Of a stretch of DNA of 64,000 nucleotides, positions 4,840-54,500 are shown piece by piece. The DNA is from Arachis hypogaea (Eukaryota > Streptophyta > Magnoliopsida > Fabales > Fabaceae): the NCBI RefSeq assembly GCF_003086295.3, contig NC_092045.1, forward strand, positions 27,508,022-27,572,021, read 5' to 3'. Numbering within the stretch: the first letter of the stretch is position 1; each line of letters starts with the position of its first letter. The notes under the pieces are model-generated. The model saw only the letters and a list, made by a program, of their open reading frames with translations, did not search any database and had not been told where the DNA came from. The translations under genes were made by a program, and so were the position numbers.

Positions 4840-6318
4840 TGATAAACCACTATTTTATAGTTTATATTGTGTTTAATTGTGTGGTTTTGTCGTGATCCTT
4901 ACCCACTTATTCATCAATTTAGCATGCATTTAGATTTCCTTCCTGAATTTATTACATGTTTGAAAATTGCTTCCCAGAGACTTTAATTATTTAATTTTAA
5001 TTCTCCTTTATTCCATTCGATGCCGTAATCTGTGTGTCAAGCGTTTCAGGCTTTATAGGGCATGAATGAGACGGAGATTAGAGAGGAAGCTAGCAAAAAT
5101 GGAAGGAACACAAGAGTTTGAGGAGATAACCAGCGAAAAGTGACGCGGTCGCATGGCTCACGCGATCGCGCGAAGGAGCGCAAATCGCAGTGACACGGCC
5201 GCATGGCTTGCGCGGCCGCGCGGATTGGGAAGCACAAGCAACGCGGTAGCGTGGACGACGCGAATGCGTGAAGAGGAAAAGCGCCAGCGATGCGTCTGCA
5301 TGGTCGACGCGATCGCGTGACATGCGCGATCTGCATAAACTACAGAATCTGAAACCAGCGATTTTGGACCCTATTTCAGTCCAGTTTTCGGCCTGGAATA
5401 GCATACCAGAGTCAGAGAATATGCAGAAACAACAGAGAAAACATTCATTAAGTAGTTTAGATCTAGTTTTGACTCTCTTAGGTTTTTTTTCTCTCTAGTT
5501 TTAAGAATTTTAATTTTCAATTGATCTTAGCATTGGAACATTGAGAAGAGTTATTTTCCTTATCAAGACTTCATCACTCTAGTTTGTTCTCTTAACTTGG
5601 TTTTATTCTTCCATGTTCTTTGTTATGTTCAATTTTGTCATTCAGATATTTTTATGATTAATTAATGCAAGGATTATTTCTTTTTAATTTAAATTCCATT
5701 CCAATAATCATGTCTTCTTTTAATTCCCTTTCATGTGCCATGGATTCTTTATTTACAATGCGTGAGTAGTTTCATTACTTGATGGGGAGTTGATTAAAAG
5801 GAACTCTTGAGTTGGAAGGATTGAAAGAAAAATTTGTAATTGGGTTGAATGTTGGATTGCTATCCTGTCACCGACGCCAATCCCTTTGAACTAAGTGGGT
5901 TGCAACTTGTGAACAGATCTGGCATTTCCACTTGTTTGACTTTCTCTTACCTAGTAAGGGATAACCAAACAGAACAACTATTAATTATAAATTAATCTTA
6001 CAATCACACCATCAATGATAGAGATTCTAACCAATCAATTTCCAGTCAAGGCCTCTTATTTTTATTATTTAAAATTCCTCAATTTAAATCCCAATTTACT
6101 TAGCTCAACTCTTTTTGGAATATCTGATTAATAAAACAGCACATTTTTCTGCAACTCGTCGGGGGACGACTTGGGACTTAAAACTCCCAGTAATTTTAAT
6201 TTAAACTTTCAGTGACATATTTCTAAATTGATAGGCAGATTTTCGGTGAGTTAAGAACTATACTTGCAACGTAACCATTTTAATAAATTTTTAATTCACC
6301 AGCTTCTGCACTCCATCA
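4840..6318 (+). mobile_element. Athila-type LTR 1 (TGATAAACC...CTCCATCA)
   Basis: A ~1.48-kb LTR-like unit starting TGATAAACCACTATTTTATAG and ending near CTCCATCA. It shares its order of landmarks with the LTRs at 8594, 10241(-), 13698(-) and 15507(-): an ACCCACTTATTCAT block near the start, a CG-rich tract (5125-5325), a polypyrimidine CTCTCTTAGG block, and a late 'GACGAC-TTGGG' block. It is clearly diverged from LTR 2, so the two were not identical at a recent insertion. TATTC lies just left (4835-4839). The right end is set by alignment to the other LTRs and may be off by a few bases. Confidence 0.7.
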
Positions 6319-6588
6319 ATTTTTTCTCACGTACATGTTGAAGCTTCCATGTAAATGAGACCATTATCATTTGGCATTACCCAACCCATATTTCATTTAT
6401 TTTCTATCTTTATTTTTGGGTTACTTTTCTTTCCTTTTTTCTTTCAGGATGGCCACCAGGAAGGGAACGAAAAGAAGTTTACATGGGGAGACAGACAAGT
6501 CCATCTGCAAAATCTTGAAGAAAAGCATCAGTTGGAACAACCCATCCACCTGCACATCTCAGCATGCACCGAGAACGGTGCAATTTTT

Positions 6589-6601
6589 AAGTGTGGGGAG
6601 G
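6589..6601 (+). other. Second copy of the polypurine tract (AAGTGTGGGGAGG)
   Basis: An exact match to the 13-base tract that precedes LTR 2 at 8580-8592, here followed by TCGATACCGATC instead of an LTR. It could be an internal purine tract or the scar of an older LTR junction. Confidence 0.55.
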
Positions 6602-7317
6602 TCGATACCGATCTCCAGGGTTAGTTACTTCTTGACTCAACACCAATATTTTATTTTATTTGTTTGTTCATTGTTGCATTTGCATGTTTATTTGTTTTTT
6701 GTGCATATTTTACCACTTGGTTAAAGTAATATTTTCTTTTTCAAGAAACCTTTTAGAAAATTTCACTAATTTGAATAAAATTTAATGTTACACTTGTTTG
6801 AAGAGATATTATACTGGAACATGGTTTAGAACTCGAACACACAAAACCTGTGAGATTTTTGAGCCTATTTGAATTGGTTGCATTTTATCAACCAAAAATT
6901 TTGTTTTAGTGTGTATTTTTCTCTCTAAAATTGTGATCTTTGTCTTGCTTAATTCTATATTTCCATAATTTGATGTATGCATGCACTTATATGATTGAGG
7001 CCTTTGTTTCACTGAGCTTACATACCCATATGGCCTTAACCCTTCATTATCCCTTGCAAACCAATTTTGAGCCTATTTTACCCCTTTGTTCTTTATTTTA
7101 GCACATCATTAACTCTAAGCAAAAAAATAGTAATGTCCTTAATTTGAATCCTTGGTTAGCTTAGACTAGTGAGAATGCTTATGAATTAAGTGTGGGGAAA
7201 AGTGGGTTTGGAAATATCTGGTTTGAGAATTGAGTATGTTAGAATTTTCTGAAAATGTGAAAGAAATGTTTAGGACATGTTCATGCATTCAATAAATTAA
7301 TCATATGCATTGAGAAA

Positions 7318-7322
<5 letters not shown>

Positions 7323-7360
<38 letters not shown>
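7323..7360. repeat. (AT)n microsatellite
   Basis: About 19 uninterrupted AT units inside the Athila internal region. Confidence 0.98.
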
Positions 7361-7362
<2 letters not shown>

Positions 7363-7677
7363 AGAAAAAAAGAGCAAATAATAAAAAGGGGACAAAATGC
7401 CCCAAAGTAAGTGGTGAAAGCAATGCATATGAGTTGTACTTGAAATTAGAATGTATGAATATGTGGAAAACATAGTTAATGGACAGTTAGGTTTGTATTG
7501 TGATTACATGGATTGTCTAAAGTTAGGTGGAAAGTTTAAGTTAATTAAGGATTCAGATTTTAGTCCACTTGACCAAATACAATCCTACCTTGACCCTAAC
7601 CCCATTACAACCCTTAAAAGACCTCTTGATTTGTGTATCTGTGCATTAAACTTATGTTGATTGTTAGATAAAGAGCA

Positions 7678-7802
7678 AGCCTTAGAAAGCAAGGTTAGTA
7701 GAGAATTGAGAGATCGAACCTTAAACACCTGAGTGATTAGAGTGTATACACTACCAGTAAAGGTTCGATGCTCAATTCCTTGTTCCCTGCTTTCATAAGC
7801 TA
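7678..7802. repeat. Long imperfect hairpin (about 42-nt arms, 37-nt loop)
   Basis: The left arm (7678-7722) and right arm (7760-7802) are mutually complementary over about 42 positions. Perfect blocks are ATCGAACCTT/AAGGTTCGAT, GAATTGAG/CTCAATTC and GAAAGC/GCTTTC, with small bulges between. The loop is 7723-7759. The size and arm length resemble a plant small-RNA precursor. The right arm contains GGTTCGATGCTC, similar to a Pol III B box, and TGAGTGATTAGAGTG in the loop loosely resembles an A box. There is no proof of transcription. Confidence 0.7.
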
Positions 7803-8040
7803 TTTTCTTCTTACAAGTCTATTTGTTGTCACGGCCTTGGACACACTCCAACACTGCCGTGCCGGCACTCAGACTTACTCAACCTCTTGAGCTAAGACCA
7901 AGTCAACCTAACCCTCAATACTTAGCAAGAAAGCTAAGAACACAAGAGAACACAAGAAAAAGGAAGCTTGGTGGAAAGAACACTTTAGTACTCAAGTGTG
8001 GTTACAAATGATTCACACCCTCACACTAACTCTTACCTCC

Positions 8041-8048
8041 TATTTATA
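8041..8048 (-). promoter_or_regulatory. TATA box of the 548-bp LTR-like element
   Basis: The minus strand reads TATAAATA within GGCTATAAATAGGAGG, a near-consensus plant TATA box. It lies about 160 bp downstream of the heat-shock-element array on the same strand. Confidence 0.6.
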
Positions 8049-8207
8049 GCCATCCACCTCCTCAATGGATGGTTAGGATTAAATCTAATCAATGGTCTAG
8101 ATTAATCATCTAGAACCTTCTTTATAAATATCTATCCTACCACTACTTTCTAAATACTTCTAGATTATTCCATACAACTCTTCATACTTTTATATCAATC
8201 CACACTC

Positions 8208-8310
8208 TTCTAGAATATTCTATGATCTTCTAGAGTCTTCTAGAACCTTCTAGGGTATTCCAGGAATTTCTAGGACATTCTAGAACGTTCCAGAACCATC
8301 TAGAGTATTC
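8208..8310. promoter_or_regulatory. Periodic heat-shock-element (HSF site) array
   Basis: TTC recurs at an exact 10-bp interval, ending at 8210, 8220, 8230, 8240, 8250, 8260, 8270, 8280, 8290 and 8310 (ATC at 8300). GAA or near-GAA fills the alternate 5-bp positions. This gives contiguous alternating nTTCn/nGAAn pentamers with TTCTAGAA as the commonest core, the textbook heat-shock-factor site. Isolated units continue at 8108-8120 and 8158-8170. Binding is inferred from the motif only. Confidence 0.75.
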
Positions 8311-8579
8311 TCAAACACTCCAAAAAACTATACAAACACTGTTAAATCTAACCTTCTAAAAATTTACCGTGACATTGTGCTTCATTTTTTATGATTTGAA
8401 TTAGTGAAATCCAGTTCATATTTGTTCTTGAAAGATTTGTTTATTTTTAATCAAGTAGGTAGAAACATTTTGCATGTAGTTGCATTTATATAAGATAGGT
8501 TGCATTTCATACATTCTATCATTCCTCTTCATTCCTTTATAGCTTCTCTTGAGTTTAGCATGAGGACATGCTAATGTTT

Positions 8580-8592
8580 AAGTGTGGGGAGG
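8580..8592 (+). other. Polypurine tract (AAGTGTGGGGAGG) before LTR 2
   Basis: A purine-rich tract ending two bases before TGATAAACCC, the usual plus-strand priming site of Athila elements. It shows that LTR 2 is a 3' LTR and that the upstream sequence is its internal region. Confidence 0.85.
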
Positions 8593-8593
8593 T

Positions 8594-10019
8594 TGATAAA
8601 CCCATATTTCATGGTTTATCCTGTGCTCAATTGAGTGGTTTTTATCAACTCTTTACCCACTTATTCATACTATTCGCATGTTTTACATTTGCCTTCCTAA
8701 TTATGTGCTTTGATTGAAAACATGCTTCTTTGATCTTATATTTGCTTATTATTAATCCTCTCTTAATACCATTAGATGCCTTGATATGTGTGTTAAGTGT
8801 TTTCAGATATTATAAGGCAGGAATGGCTCAGAGGATGGAAAGGAAGCATGCAAAAATGGAAGGAATACAATAAGTTGGAGAAATTGCTAAGTTGTCCAGC
8901 CTGACCTCTTCGCACTCAAACGGCTATAACTTTAGCTACAGAGGTCCAAATGACGCGGTTCCAGTTGCGTTGGAAAGCTAACGTCCGGGGCTTCAATTTG
9001 ATATATAATTTGCCATAGCTGCCCCGACGCCAAGCGACGCGAACGTGTGAGTCGCGCGGACGCGTGACCTGGCAAGAACGCAACCCGCGCGGCCGCGTGA
9101 GCCATGCGGCCGCGTCACTTGTCTGCGACCTGTACGGACCAAAAAGCGCTGGAAGTGATTTCTGGGCTATTTCTGACCCAATTTTTGGCCTAGAGAACAC
9201 AGATTAGAGGCTATAAAGTGGGGGAATGCATCCATTCATAACAAGGCTATCATAATTTACTTTTCCATGATTTAGATTTAGTTTTGAGAGAGGTTCTCTC
9301 CTCTCTCTCTTAGGATTAGGATTAGGACTTCTCTTAGTTTTAGGAGTGACTCTCAATCTCAGGTTCTTTATTTTTTTTTAATTTATGAACTCTTTCATGT
9401 TACATATAATTTTCTTAATTAATGTTATTTGAGGTATTTCCATTCATGATTGCTTTCTTTTATTTACATGATTACTGCTTCCCATCTGAAGACATTTTTT
9501 ATTCAGTAAATTTACTATTTTCTTTTTGCCTTTGGTTGAGACATTGGTAACTCTTGAGTTATCAAATTCATTGTTGATTGAAAATTGGAATTAATTTGCC
9601 CACTTAACTTACTTCCATAGTTAGAGATTAATAAGATGGGGGAAGAATCCAATTCTCATCATAATTGATAAGAATAACTAGGATAGGACCTCCAGTTCTT
9701 AATACCTTGCCAAGAGTTTATTTTTATTGCTATTATTTTATTTCCTCTGCTATTTACTATTGTTGCTTTTTATCTCATACTTTAAAAACCCCCCAATTTA
9801 CAATCTCCATAGCCAATAATAAGAACATACCTCCCTGCAATTCCTTGAGAAGACGACCCGAGGTTTAAATACTCGGTTATCAATTTTAAAAGGGGTTTGT
9901 TACTTGTGACAACCAAAACGTTTGTACGAAGGGATTTATGTCGGTTTAGAGACTATATCTACAATGCGACTGTTTTTATGACATTCTTTACTGGCAAAAA
10001 TCCTCTCACCAATAACTCA
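8594..10019 (+). mobile_element. Athila-type LTR 2 (3' LTR)
   Basis: Starts TGATAAACCCATATTTCATGG and contains the shared ACCCACTTATTCAT block, a CG-rich tract (9020-9125), CTCTCTCTTAGG, and a late AAGACGACCCGAGG block. The end is either CACCA at 10011 or ACTCA at 10019. I prefer 10019 because TACTC follows, one base from the TATTC left of LTR 1, and the interrupted Tat LTR then resumes. The minus-strand ORF over the CG-rich tract is a composition artefact. Confidence 0.75.
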
Positions 10020-47576: not shown

Positions 47577-50500
47577 ATGCCCAAAAAAAATAAAACCAAA
47601 GATGTTGATCGTCCTGAGTTGCATATTATACACTATCTCAGTGTACCTGATTATGTAAGTTTGTTATCATTTTTTTAATTTTTATAATTATAATTAATAT
47701 TGTTAAAATGTTAGTAGTTATTATCATTGTTAGGATCTGAACTTAGAAATAGGTATATAGAATAGAATAGTTAGGAAATAATTTAAATTTTTTTTAATTT
47801 TTTCACTGTTTCTGTATGAAATTTATTATTGTTAGTATGTTAATGGTTTTGCTGTATAGATTGGCTTCTCTTTATTGTTGTTGCGGTGATTAAAATAATA
47901 AAAACGTAGGAATTTTTTTTATTTGTGTAAATTTTTTTTGTATAATTTGGCTTACCGGTATAATTTTTTTCAGGATTTTTTTGTTATAATTTTTAGAATT
48001 TAAGAAGTGAAATATTATTAGAATAGTTAGAAAATAAATTTTAAAAATAAAGAAAGAGTGCCGAATTGTTGATAATTTTTGGATACAGTATGTTTTTTTT
48101 TTTTGAATAAATTTATAAATTCTTAATTATTTATAATTGTTGCTGTATTAGTAAATTATTGGTGTGGCTACAATAAAATAATAAAGAGGTGTAGAAAATG
48201 ATAAATAAGAACTGCATAATAATCGAAAGCGTGTTACTTTAATTAATTGTAATTATCATCATTATAAGAGATGTTAATTAATTATTATTGTTAACAGAAA
48301 ACAAATTTAAATAGATATTTACGATAATTGTTAATGTTTTTTAAATTTTAGAAATATATGTTTAAATTTATTTAAGTAATAGGTAACATGTTAATATTAT
48401 TTAAGCAATAGTGTGTGAGTTGACTAATGACTTGTTTTGGTTTTTTTAGAAATTAAGAATGTTGACCTGTGACCATCCACTTCCCCCGGATCGGTACAAC
48501 GATCGGGTGGAAGACCATTTACGAGTTATTGGATTCTATCATGCATCTCAAATTGGTGTCGTACAAAATCAGAAAGCACTCGTGAATGCTCTAATAGAAC
48601 GGTGGCACCCTGAAACACATACGTTTCACCTTCCAATTGGTGAGTGTGCCGTAAGTCTTGAAGACGTGGCTCTAATTCTTGGTCTCCCGACGGATGGTCT
48701 TCCAGTTACTGGGATGACAATGAGTAGCTTCTCAGCGTTGGAGGCAGAATGTTTGCATCAATTTGGAGTGGCACCGAGTAAGGTAGAGTGTAGAGGATGT
48801 TGTATAAAACTGACTTGGCTGCGGGACCTAAAAGAAAACATTCAGTTGGCTGATGACTTAAGTATACAGAGGTACGTGAAGTGCCATATTATGTTGCTGA
48901 TCGGGACGATCTTGTTTGGGGATAAATCTGGGGCAGCTGTGCACTGGAAGTTCCTACCCTTGCTTCGTGACTTTGCCAGTATTGGACATTATAGTTGGGG
49001 TTCGGCTTGCCTTGCACACCTCTACAGGGGGTTATGCAGGGCATCTCGTTATAATTGTAAGGAAATAGATGGTCCAATAACACTTTTGCTTGCTTGGGCT
49101 TGGCTCCGACTGCCATATCTGTCGCCGATCCCGAGAGAGCCCCACAGCTTTCCATTAGCCAACAGGTAATGTCACGTTACAATCTACTCGTAGCTTTACA
49201 TTTTAAATTCAGTTTATCTAATTGAATATGTGATATTAGGTGGCGTAACTGGGAGCGTGGTGATCGACGATATAGGTATTTGAATCTAGCTCACTTTAGG
49301 AAGGCCTTTGATGAACTTCAGGAAGGCCAGGTGTGGTTTACTAAAATATTTATGATTTTGGGTCATTTTAATTAGGCATTTTTATTGTTATTGATGATCT
49401 GGGTTGTATTCATGAGTATCTTTTATTTTTCCCAGTTTGTGTGGGTTGCGTATGCTGTGGATCGCGTGAATCCGAACATAATTCCTCCTGAGATCTATAT
49501 GCAATCGGTTGTGTGGTCTGCTACTGTTCCGTTGGTGTCATTTGAATGTATCGAGTGGCATGCTACCGACAGGTACAGGCGACAGTTTGGTTTCGTTCAG
49601 GAAGTACCTCAGCAGGAGCAGAGTCTTGACAAGGCGCATGGAGAAGTACTGACTGGTCCTAAGAATCTTAACTGGGCCACAACACCGACTCATTCAATTT
49701 GGGTTATGCATTGGACAAACAGGTATAACTACGTTCTTTCTGAGCTTCCCATGCCTTCACAGCATCCATTGGAAACTTATATGCACTGGTACCGGTCAAA
49801 ATATGGTAACCACTTGTACTTGTCGAATCTTGTGGGTCAAGAAAGTGATGACGATAATCAGGATATGGATGAGGGTAATCAGGATATGGATGATGGTGCT
49901 GAGGGTATGGATGAGGATAGTCAGGATGGGGATAATGACAATGAAGAGCTGGAGCCACAGCCGGTGCCGCCTCCTAGTTCCAATCCAGTTCCACTAGAAC
50001 AACCTCAGTTTTCAGGCCAGTATGTTCCTCAGACACAGTTCTCCCCGTCCGTTCCAATGCCGCATCAATATTGGGGTATGTCACAGTTTGAAGCAGGAGA
50101 AGGAGGTTCTTTTAGTCAGTTGCTTGAGTTCATGGGTGCAGATGCTGGACAAACACAATATCCCAATCAGCCTGATTTCTTGGCAGGTAGGTATTCATTG
50201 GATGCAAGGCTCCCGTGCCATACCTCGTCGGTCGCTTCAGGAGGGTTCGTATCTGTCGATTCTAGTAGAAGTGTAGGTGGACGCGGAGTTCTTAATAGTC
50301 AAAATCCTCATCGTGTTGACATGGGACCACTTCAAGAAGATGATAACCCACTCGAGCAAGACACTAATGCGTATCTAGTAGATAACCCGGATGACGAGGA
50401 TGATGATGACGAGGATGAAATAGAGGAGTTCGATGAGGATGAGGAATCCCGCAATGATGGTATTAGGCTTCGTATTTTCCTTTACATATTCGATTTTATG

Positions 50501-51173
50501 TTCATTTTGTGTTCACAAGTGGTATCCATGTTGGTTTGAGTACTTTATGTTACATTATTTAATTGTTATCATTAATTTGTGTTCATAAGTGGTATCCATG
50601 TTGGTTTGAGTACCTTATGTTACAATATTTAGTTGTTATCATTAATTTGTGTTCATAAGTGGTATCCATGTTGGTTTGAGTACCTTATGTTACAATATTT
50701 AGTATTATCATTAATAAGGCTTCATAAGTGGTATCCATGTTGGTTTGAGTACTTTATGTTACATTATTTAATTGGTATCATTAATAAGGCTTCATAAGTG
50801 GTATCCATGTTGGTTTGAGTACTTTATGTTACATTATTTAATTGTTATCATTAATAAGGCTTCATAAGTGGTATCCATGTTGGTTTGAGTACTTTATGTT
50901 ACATTACTTAATTGTTATCATTAATTTGTGTTCATAAGTGGTATCCATGTTGGTTTGAGTACCTTATGTTACAATATTTAGTTGTTATTATTAATTTTAT
51001 TTTTCTTTTATACAGGCGGGTCACAAACTCCGGATGACAAAGGCAAAGGTTACAATTTGAGGATTGATCCACCACGTCGTAGCGCTAATCGCTACACGCC
51101 GTCTGTGTTAAAAAAGGCCGCGAAAAAATGCAAGAACATAGTGACACATGTAAAGTGGTCAATGAGAAAGTAG
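47577..51173 (+). CDS. Plant mobile domain (PMD) protein, MAIN-like, transposon-encoded
   Basis: Exons 47577-47654, 48450-49165, 49240-49330, 49436-50459 and 51016-51173 join with GT-AG introns and consistent phase to 688 residues. The N-terminal part after exon 1 holds the aminotransferase-like/PMD domain (PF10536): GFYHASQIGVVQNQKALVNA, ERWHPETHTFHLPIGECAVS, LEDVALILGLPTDGLPVTG, then LLAWAWLRLPYLSP and an RWRNWERGDRRY-type block. A second half has an acidic Asp/Met/Asn repeat (49850-49950), a Pro/Gln-rich stretch, another acidic run (50390-50450), and a basic tail NLRIDPPRRSANRYTPSVLK. PMD proteins resemble MAIN/MAIL1 of Arabidopsis, which act in silencing, and also occur in MULEs. The 78-bp first exon is my choice from the in-frame ATG and good donor; translation could start at 48459. 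No lesions seen. Confidence 0.85.
50507..50990. repeat. ~71-bp tandem repeat in the last PMD intron
   Basis: Seven copies of a 70-71-bp unit containing GTGGTATCCATGTTGGTTTG fill most of the 556-bp intron 50460-51015. Two variants alternate in the tail (TTAATTTGTGTTCATAAG and TTAATAAGGCTTCATAAG). Confidence 0.9.
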
Positions 51174-51548: not shown

Positions 51549-54500
51549 CTAATGCTCTCTATTGGCATTTGCACCACCTTGCTGACGGCATCTGCCACGG
51601 CTGTGCCCCTCAGCCCCACAAAGCGTACATCGCCTAGGCCGACGTAACATCCGTGTGTCCATCTCGTTCAAGAATCGCGTCATTTTTGGGCGACCTTTCC
51701 CGAGGCGTCTCAAGAACGGATTCGGGATGAACCGAGGTCCGTTGTAAGCAGGCCATGTAGTAGGGTTACCTAATGGCCTAAACCTTGCTCGGTACAACCG
51801 CCGAACTTGGTCCATCTTATACACATCATGAACATACATTTGCCAATCCAGTCGCTGGTTGGCACAACATGCAAACACATGTCGACAAGGGATCCGGTCC
51901 ACCTGGAACTCACCACAGTCACATCGTAGCCCACGTAGGTCCACTGCAAACTCCATTCCACTTGGCATCTCACGCACCTCAAAGACCTCGTTCTGCCGGT
52001 CAAAGCAGCTAACCTGAATGTTTCCTGACGCTAGTTGGTTTGCATGCAACTTCGAGGTAACGACATCGGAAAACACATGGCCAGCATTAATCCGGGCTTC
52101 CGCTTCCGCTCTTTTTCGGGTAAACAACTCATTCAGCCTGTAGAATGTTGCCTTCACAAGGGCTGTCACGGGGAGATTGCGTGCACCCTTCAATACTGAG
52201 TTGATGCATTCGACTAGATTTGTCGTCATATGACCCCATCTATATCCACCATCAAAAGCCAACGCGTACTGTTCCCGGGGGATTCGGTTTAACCAGTCAG
52301 TGTATGCCTCATCCCGTTCTCGTAAACGTTGGTAACGCACCTCGTACTCACGCACCGTCCTCGAATATCTTGCAGGATATAAAGAAATTATTGAGACAAT
52401 ATTGGTGAACACCTTAATTCAATCGAACTCTTATATTAAATTAATTAGCTACTCTGCTAGTTACCTATGTTGACGACAAGTTTCTGCAAGTACGGAGCCT
52501 TGAATTTCCTCAAAAAATTGGACTCTATATGCCTGATGCAAAACATATGAAAGGCTCTCGGAGGTGACCAAGCCCCATTACTCCTTTCCACAGCTGCATT
52601 TATGGATTCATGACGGTCAGATATAAGCCCCACACCATCCCGAGTGACAACGTGCTGACGAAGGTTACTCAGAAAAAAGTGCCACGCATCTGAAGTCTCT
52701 CCCTCCACAATAGCAAACGCAATTGGGACGATATTGTTGTTGCCATCCTGTGACACGGCCACTAGTAGACAACCCTTGTACTTTCCATACAAGTGGGTCC
52801 CATCGACCTGGACAACTGGCTTACAATGTCTGAAAGCTCGAATGCAGGGGTAATAACTCCAAAATACACGATGCAATACCCGAATATCAGTCACCAAGTC
52901 ATCACCTTGATATGCAGGCATAGTCTCAAAATGAACAACAGCTGACGGCTCCTTGTGACACATGGCCTCAAACCATATAGGCAACGCTTCGTACGATGCC
53001 TCCCAGCCTCCAAATATTTTTTCCACTGCCTTTTGCTTAGCCAACCATGCTTTCCGATAGCTAACAGTGTAGTTGAACTTCGATTGGACCTCCGCTATAA
53101 CCGATTTTACCTTTAAGGCGGGGTCAGCCTCAACCAACGGCTTAATTGCTTCTGCAATCGTTGTTGAGTCCAGCTTAGAATGATCCTGACAAATTGTTGC
53201 TCTGGTACATGTGTGACTGCCATTATACCTCCTTACAACCCAACAGTACTTCCGGCTGATCATGCTAACCCGGATAAGCCAATCACATCCTGACCCATAC
53301 TGTATACACTTCGCATAAAATGTCAACGGCTCAGACTCATACACCCGATAATCTACGCTTCTTCGTATAGTATACTCTTTTATCGCCTTAACAACAGCAT
53401 CCCTCGAACTGAATTCCATCCCAACGGCAAATTCACCATCTGCGACAACAGGAATTTCTGCGAACAGCCATACAACAGATTTTAGAAACATAAATATTTA
53501 AACTATCGAAAATAAAGGTAAAACAAATGATGACTAAATCAATTATAAAAAAAACCCTCCAAGCTAATTATTTTTAACTAATTTACTAACAGATATTTAT
53601 ACTCAACTAATCAACTAACAGATCCTCATTTTAATTAAACTAATTTAGTACTTATATTTACTTATTTAACTAATAAATTCCTATTTATATTCAGTTAAAT
53701 TTAATTTAAAGAACTTCAGAATTAACAAATTTTAATTTACCTAACTTACCTATATTGACTTAATATCTTCGAATTTAACCAATTTTAATTAATTTAATTT
53801 ACTTCTTATACTTACTTAATTTACTAATCTTGGCCTATTTATACTAACTTACATTTAATTTAACTAAATTTAACCCGGTTAACAAATTTTAATTTAACTA
53901 ACTTCCTTATATTTACTTAATAACTTCCAATTTTACCAATTTTAATTAAACTAATTTTCTAGTTATATTTACTTAATTAACTAATAAATTCCTATTTATA
54001 TGGACTTAATTTTAATTTAACTAAATCTAACAAATTTAACAACATTTAATTTAACTAATTTACTTATATTTACTTAATAAATACCAATTTAACCAATTTT
54101 AATTAAACTAATTCACTAATAAATTTCAATTTATAAATACTTAATTTATAAAATTAACTCATAATTATGGAGAATCACGTACCAGTATTGATATAATCCG
54201 GAAACTCCGGAACATGCATGGCTTCCAAATCCAAAACTCGCATGAATGATGGCTCCTCAAACGGCACATCCTGTGCCAGAGCAGTTGCGACATCAGATAC
54301 ATCCGGAGCCATACCTCCGTCACCTGGAACCCCATCTCCATCTGGACCAACAACTTCGTAGTTGCTTTCGAACTCATCCTCGCTGTCACTATTGTAATCC
54401 TCCCGTACAATATTACGGTCGGCCTCACATTGCTCAAACTCCACATACAACTCGATGAACGACACCTGTCTCCGATTTTCAATATACATGGAAAACATAT

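Follow-up and report, generated by a model that had tools for sequence, protein, structure and literature searches.

The question raised by this locus is whether a peanut (Arachis hypogaea) retroelement carries a promoter built from heat-shock elements (HSEs), the kind of site bound by heat-shock factors (HSFs). In the 64,000-nucleotide stretch of contig NC_092045.1 analysed here (the window; C10:27508022-27572021 of a searched genome of 2.557 Gb in 440 contigs), a 548-bp unit begins with TGTCACGG at 7827 and closes with CCGTGACA at 8374 (TG..CA ends). We identified this unit as a solo long terminal repeat (LTR) of a Ty3/Gypsy chromovirus family, and its 10-bp-periodic HSE array as a family trait among the sampled members. 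We consider it likely that the LTR is an HSF-driven, heat-responsive promoter, through which heat switches on transcription of the element. The parts of the LTR are as follows:

7827..8374, minus strand as sense: solo LTR of a Ty3/Gypsy chromovirus family, U3 start at 8374, U5 end at 7827
8105..8324, minus strand: 10-bp register in its full extent, 22 decamers, of which 20 keep the G, 21 the first A, 14 the whole GAA and 5 the whole TTC
8205..8314, minus strand: core HSE array of 11 decamers with the consensus TCTAGAAGAT; ten of the decamers have an intact GAA and four an intact TTC
8278..8295, no strand assigned: 4P-type HSE, four contiguous perfect alternating modules
8238..8250, no strand assigned: 3P-type HSE, three contiguous perfect modules
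8208..8220, no strand assigned: 3P-type HSE, three contiguous perfect modules
8041..8049, minus strand: TATA box CTATAAATA, downstream of the array

The array is regular to the base. Ten TTC modules and one ATC module, at 8208, 8218 and so on up to 8308, follow one another at intervals of exactly 10 bp; of the element's 17 TTC triplets, 14 fall in a single one of the ten registers (binomial probability times ten, 5e-11). GAA-like modules lie between them, perfect at 8213, 8243, 8283 and 8293; from 8208 to 8308, 14 of 21 modules are perfect (10 TTC, 4 GAA) and the other seven are off by one or two letters. The U3 of the window copy holds a 10-bp repeat, TTCTAGAAnn, with 14 in-phase GAA, which together with the intervening TTC make up the one 4-module and the two 3-module perfect HSEs. 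With 1000 dinucleotide shuffles of the element as the null, the longest loose run of alternating modules (at least two of three letters right) is 14, compared with a shuffle mean of 3.7 and maximum of 9, and the longest perfect run is four (shuffle maximum three); the rest of the window reaches only seven and two. With up to three mismatches allowed, the five-module pattern TTCTAGAANNTTCTAGAANNTTC is matched 15 times in the window, each time inside the LTR, against an expectation of 0.11. A chance origin of the array is ruled out by the shuffles, the register statistic and the reversed-control pattern counts in the genome given below. The periodicity originally predicted is thereby borne out, the register being exact and the runs beyond those of the shuffles. 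The prediction of eleven modules over about 100 bp was right as to register and count, but the register is longer, with 22 decamers over 8105-8324. A further claim, of up to twenty contiguous HSF pentamers, stands under the loose definition only: with seven of the 21 modules imperfect and no perfect run longer than four, it was too generous.

On the minus strand, the LTR start (8374) is followed by the array (8324 to 8105), by CTATAAATA at 8049-8041, by the presumed transcription start and by R-U5 to 7827, so that the array does lie upstream of a minus-strand TATA box, as had been proposed. Transcription would be expected to start near 8015, about 30 bp past the TATA box CTATAAATAG. The U3 has one CG site against 6.9 expected, and CHG sites are present in the LTR of the window copy.

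How the LTR came to stand alone can be read from its surroundings. We found no second LTR partner in the 64-kb window, and the window copy is a solo LTR with a 4-bp duplication, inserted in an older repeat:

7823..7826, no strand assigned: left 4-bp target-site duplication TTGT, identical to 8375-8378
8375..8378, no strand assigned: right 4-bp target-site duplication TTGT, the flank overlap at the empty site
4840..8594, plus strand: older host repeat with TGATAAAC-type terminal pieces, its boundaries and the pairing of these pieces being putative

An empty site was seen in all three copies of the surrounding repeat examined (two on C1, 6 kb apart, and one on C9), which are other copies of that repeat and not the orthologous locus in a relative. 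At 98.4% they match the left and right flanks of the LTR, which share exactly 4 bp, TTGT, at the empty site. The solo LTR was presumably left behind when the two LTRs of a chromodomain-bearing Ty3/Gypsy retrotransposon recombined. A mobile heat enhancer, the other option offered in the original prediction, is at most a possibility for this copy, which sits inside another repeat. The host repeat, which we take to be gypsy-like, is abundant (3485 first-look candidates genome-wide for 8375-8594), and its terminal pieces at 4840-5122 and 8594-8880 match at 73%.

The identity of the family follows from its complete members. Searching the genome with the LTR gave 1125 first-look candidates, and all 40 that were scored, window copy included, span the full 548 bases at 95-100%. 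Many of these 40 are paired, about 5.1 kb or 3.9 kb apart, giving 14 LTR pairs, two of which stem from the duplication of one element. Judged from the flanks, 11 of the 14 have an exact 4-bp target duplication; in the other three the flanks do not agree exactly. Among the 39 LTRs fetched, 5' LTRs are followed by the primer-binding site (PBS) ACTTGGTATCAGAGC and variants of it, which we take to match tRNA-Met, and 3' LTRs are preceded by the polypurine tract (PPT) TTAGGTGGGGGAGAA, with PPT variants in 2 of the 14 pairs. The interior of a 5.1-kb copy on C7 encodes, in order, Ty3 capsid/gag, aspartic protease, reverse transcriptase (RT), RNase H, integrase and a chromodomain (Pfam matches in L048 and L049 of this copy; Chromo E 1e-10), and its coding region is broken into several frames. 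Membership in Ty1/copia is ruled out, as RT precedes integrase and both Ty3_capsid and the chromodomain are present; in Ty1/copia polyproteins integrase comes before RT. The original prediction of an LTR-like insertion from a retroelement family is upheld by this family assignment. It had named a lack of paired-LTR copies as evidence against itself, and the search for full-length copies found such pairs, with PBS, PPT and, in the C7 copy, the domains.

Is the array a peculiarity of the window copy or a property of the family? We sampled 3' LTRs through the PPT-LTR junction TGGGGGAGAATGTCAC, independently of the array; the junction has 214 matches genome-wide and none in the reversed control. 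From 100 listed junctions of the 214, 70 were taken (30 initial loci and 40 chosen by hand, some fetched loci being left out), all on C1-C11, with C7 and C8 skipped and C6 and C10 covered in part. All 70 align with the LTR, 67 of them up to its end; L056, L098 and L123, whose alignments stop short of LTR position 540, were dropped, so that the sample of 68 consists of these 67 and the window copy. Mean pairwise identity in the junction sample is 91%. Contiguous perfect modules number at least three in 65 of the 68 LTRs, at least four in 49 and at least five in eight; one sampled LTR has a run of seven, and three have no run of at least three. At least seven GAA follow one another in unbroken 10-bp steps in 38/68, and the array segment is 210 bp long in 55/68. 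A perfect run of three is absent from all 68 reversed LTRs and from all 68 R-U5 parts. Genome copies without the array had likewise been named beforehand as a finding that would speak against the proposal; in the sampled copies the array is kept. Together with the 4P and two 3P elements of the window copy, the runs of at least three in 65/68 LTRs also sustain the reading of the array as HSEs.

Longer perfect sites place the family in a genomic context. Six perfect modules starting with GAA occur at 13 sites genome-wide (reversed control 0), 11 of them in the LTR family, and six starting with TTC at 37 sites (control 1), all 37 in the family. The 11 GAA-start sites were assigned by an LTR match with the array masked from the query. 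Of the TTC-start sites, 16 lie in fetched stretches that match the masked LTR, and 13 more are inside loci already so assigned; six belong to the junction sample and two were assigned by distance to a listed junction, their sequence not being fetched. The 48 of 50 matches that fall in the family correspond to about 35 distinct LTRs when overlaps are counted once, and the window copy, with its run of four, is not among them. The two exceptions have identical coordinate and letters on C5 and C15, and neither matches the LTR. They are one coding exon in two copies; that on C5 is part of an open frame that has a GDI domain (L133 1501-1528), and the six-module HSE in this frame is probably due to chance. 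The matches that C5 and C15 have at identical coordinates (3805288 and 5812993) point to replacement between homoeologues or to a stretch duplicated in the assembly at these chromosome ends.

What would such an array do? Heat-activated HSFs (HSFA1/HSFA2 class) would bind the 4P and 3P elements as trimers, helically phased GAA modules would assist the binding, and bound HSFs would turn on transcription of the element in heat stress, as in ONSEN (ATCOPIA78) of Arabidopsis, with other machinery and more sites; heat transcription would in turn feed transposition. In Brassicaceae COPIA elements the predicted type of heat-responsive element (HRE) tracks heat induction, which reaches a thousand-fold for 4P and a hundred-fold for 3P (PMC5059998). 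By this rule the LTR is predicted to be strongly heat-inducible. Several points weigh on the other side. Gap and step HREs are mostly insufficient for heat induction (PMC5059998), and most in-phase GAAs of the LTR are in step or gap arrangements. Solo LTRs and fragments of Arabidopsis ONSEN were never heat-responsive, but these lacked functional HREs (PMC5059998). Depletion of CG can also stem from deamination of methylated DNA.

Further results concern constraint on the array. The unit TTCTAGAA is palindromic, and therefore G of GAA and C of TTC should decay alike without selection, provided that every unit started as this palindrome. Among the 22 decamers 20 retain the G and 21 the first A, as against 11 for C (Fisher p = 0.007). 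This difference appears only over the 22: in the 11-decamer core G is kept in 11/11 and C in 9/11 (p = 0.48). Variants shared by at least four LTRs number 5 in the GAA cores, where 8.2 are expected from base-matched positions (P = 0.10), and neither the TTC modules (9 vs 10.3) nor the spacers (14 vs 12.5) differ significantly. The A positions of the GAA cores have no shared variant at 20 sites compared with 12 at 109 A sites elsewhere, and variation at the G of GAA is about that at other G positions. Rare variants are not depleted in the cores (18 vs 16.5 expected), which is what neutral decay after insertion would give. The shared variants are suggestive of selection on the GAA cores, at a level that is not significant.

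A first alternative regards the present state of the family. The array may once have been heat-inducing in a family that is now silenced, its scattered HSF-binding sites acting, if at all, as decoys or as enhancers of nearby genes. We regard this as unlikely, although it is the rival that fares best. The broken coding region of the C7 copy would fit, as would the location of the LTRs: of the 94 intact 3' junctions that were listed for C1-C10, 81 fall in the outer chromosome quarters, where genes are expected and where half would be expected by position, an enrichment that rests on intact junctions and could reflect differential decay. Chromodomain elements are more often located in heterochromatin. 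For the host repeat, none of 17 best-scoring places (from the best 40 of 3485) is in the outer quarters. Silencing is harder to reconcile with the little-diverged pairs (K 0.0018 and 0.0073). Across 13 independent LTR pairs, chosen for their similarity to the window copy and not at random, divergence K runs from 0.0018 to 0.044. Plant substitution rates are about 8e-9 to 1.3e-8 per site and year, and with these the pairs would be roughly 0.1 to 2.7 million years old. The least diverged pair tested (K 0.0018) has the 4P and two 3P elements in both LTRs. A second observation against silencing comes from the 3.9-kb class; the one copy of it that was scanned has no RT-RNase H part. Four of five RT-deleted copies examined have identical breakpoints at different sites, and one does not:

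C1:8190125-8194583, C3:31213728-31218198, C8:3487580-3492051 and C10:1150048-1154516, strand not given: RT-RNase H-deleted derivatives with the common deletion

The fifth copy, at C1:104.2 Mb, has a different deletion. Given the common breakpoints at different sites, a non-autonomous RT-deleted derivative seems to have moved, apparently mobilised in trans; with the little-diverged pairs, its spread points to recent transposition. Two further copies, L041 (C6:117632473) and L040 (C16:149899432), share the same 10-base flanks on both sides in two subgenomes and may be an old shared insertion or a homoeologous exchange.

A second alternative denies any role in heat induction, the array being a 10-bp U3 minisatellite that grew by slippage and resembles HSEs by accident. 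Upstream of the TATA box the U3 does consist mostly of one decaying 10-bp repeat, and three of the results on constraint agree with this explanation: the shortfall of shared core variants is not significant (P = 0.10), rare variants, which are expected after insertion, are undepleted in the cores (18 vs 16.5), and the core array, taken by itself, preserves G and C to a similar degree (p = 0.48). Nonetheless, over 22 decamers GA is kept in 20-21 and the palindrome-equivalent C in 11 (p = 0.007), the 20 A sites of GAA cores lack a shared variant where 12 are found at 109 sites elsewhere, and the repeat unit holds exactly the contiguous HSE core nTTCnnGAAn. Moreover, with the array segment at 210 bp in 55/68 LTRs, active slippage is not seen. 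We judge a purely accidental minisatellite to be improbable. As for a DNA transposon or miniature inverted-repeat transposable element (MITE) with 8-bp terminal inverted repeats, the short inverted ends are all that speaks for it, and it is ruled out to near certainty by like units paired around retrotransposon domains, with PBS and PPT.

If the LTR is a heat-responsive promoter, a bolder scenario can be drawn, which we offer tentatively and with more doubt than confidence. In a legume chromovirus, a 10-bp HSE repeat would have come to form most of the U3, and the element would hold nearly all perfect six-module HSF sites of the 2.56-Gb genome; heat would drive the element and its RT-deleted passenger, and super-HSEs seeded in chromosome arms would titrate HSFs or rewire genes. 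Should the array work, a crop genome holds hundreds of dispersed, potentially very strong heat-response promoters, many of them in distal arms. This bears on the capture of the heat-shock pathway by retrotransposons and on independent heat wiring in the Gypsy lineage, on whether these LTRs alter the control of genes beside them or act as a sink for HSF, and on transposon activity in a warming climate.

Elsewhere in the window lie a 107-bp tandem repeat (786-1333; 5.1 copies, 97%), a 70-bp tandem repeat (50506-50997; 7 copies, 93%) that ends the pieces of a plant mobile domain gene at 48450-50536, and, on the minus strand at 51549-53494, pieces of a MULE transposase and of a SWIM zinc finger. 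An Rfam scan of the window at gathering scores gave no match, and neither did one 20-base LTR motif against viral contigs.

The comparison with known systems begins with literature titles and the starts of abstracts, a body of text that mostly leaves out subscription papers and from which we claim no absence from print; it contained no such peanut family or array. ONSEN, the model invoked in the original prediction, is not kin at the family level, being Ty1/copia. The likeness lies in contiguous perfect HSEs including a 4P type (here 8278-8295) and in a CG-poor promoter, that of ONSEN being without CG and CHG sites (PMC3907296). The peanut element differs as a Ty3/Gypsy chromovirus with a longer array, the U3 of its window copy having 14 GAA in phase, and heat induction, demonstrated for ONSEN, is for the peanut LTR a prediction from its motifs. 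TERESTRA, COPIA37 and ROMANIAT5 of Brassicaceae also have nGAAn clusters in their LTRs, the gain of which (six in A. lyrata TERESTRA) correlates with heat response (PMC5059998); they have fewer modules, and the available part of that paper describes no long 10-bp-phased array. PHRE1 and PHRE2 of moso bamboo (4980 and 5515 bp) are likewise Ty3/Gypsy, similar in length and studied under heat stress, but their LTRs are reported to interact with TCP, DOF and GATA factors, unlike the HSE array (PMC8656106); in the accessible text of that paper "heat shock" occurs three times and the terms HSE and HSF were not found. A retrotransposon of Vigna angularis called ONSEN is also from a legume and heat-activated, and is listed as Ty1/copia (PMC9780303). 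The HSE-bearing LTR promoter is thus already known; here it is found in a chromovirus, and unusually dense.
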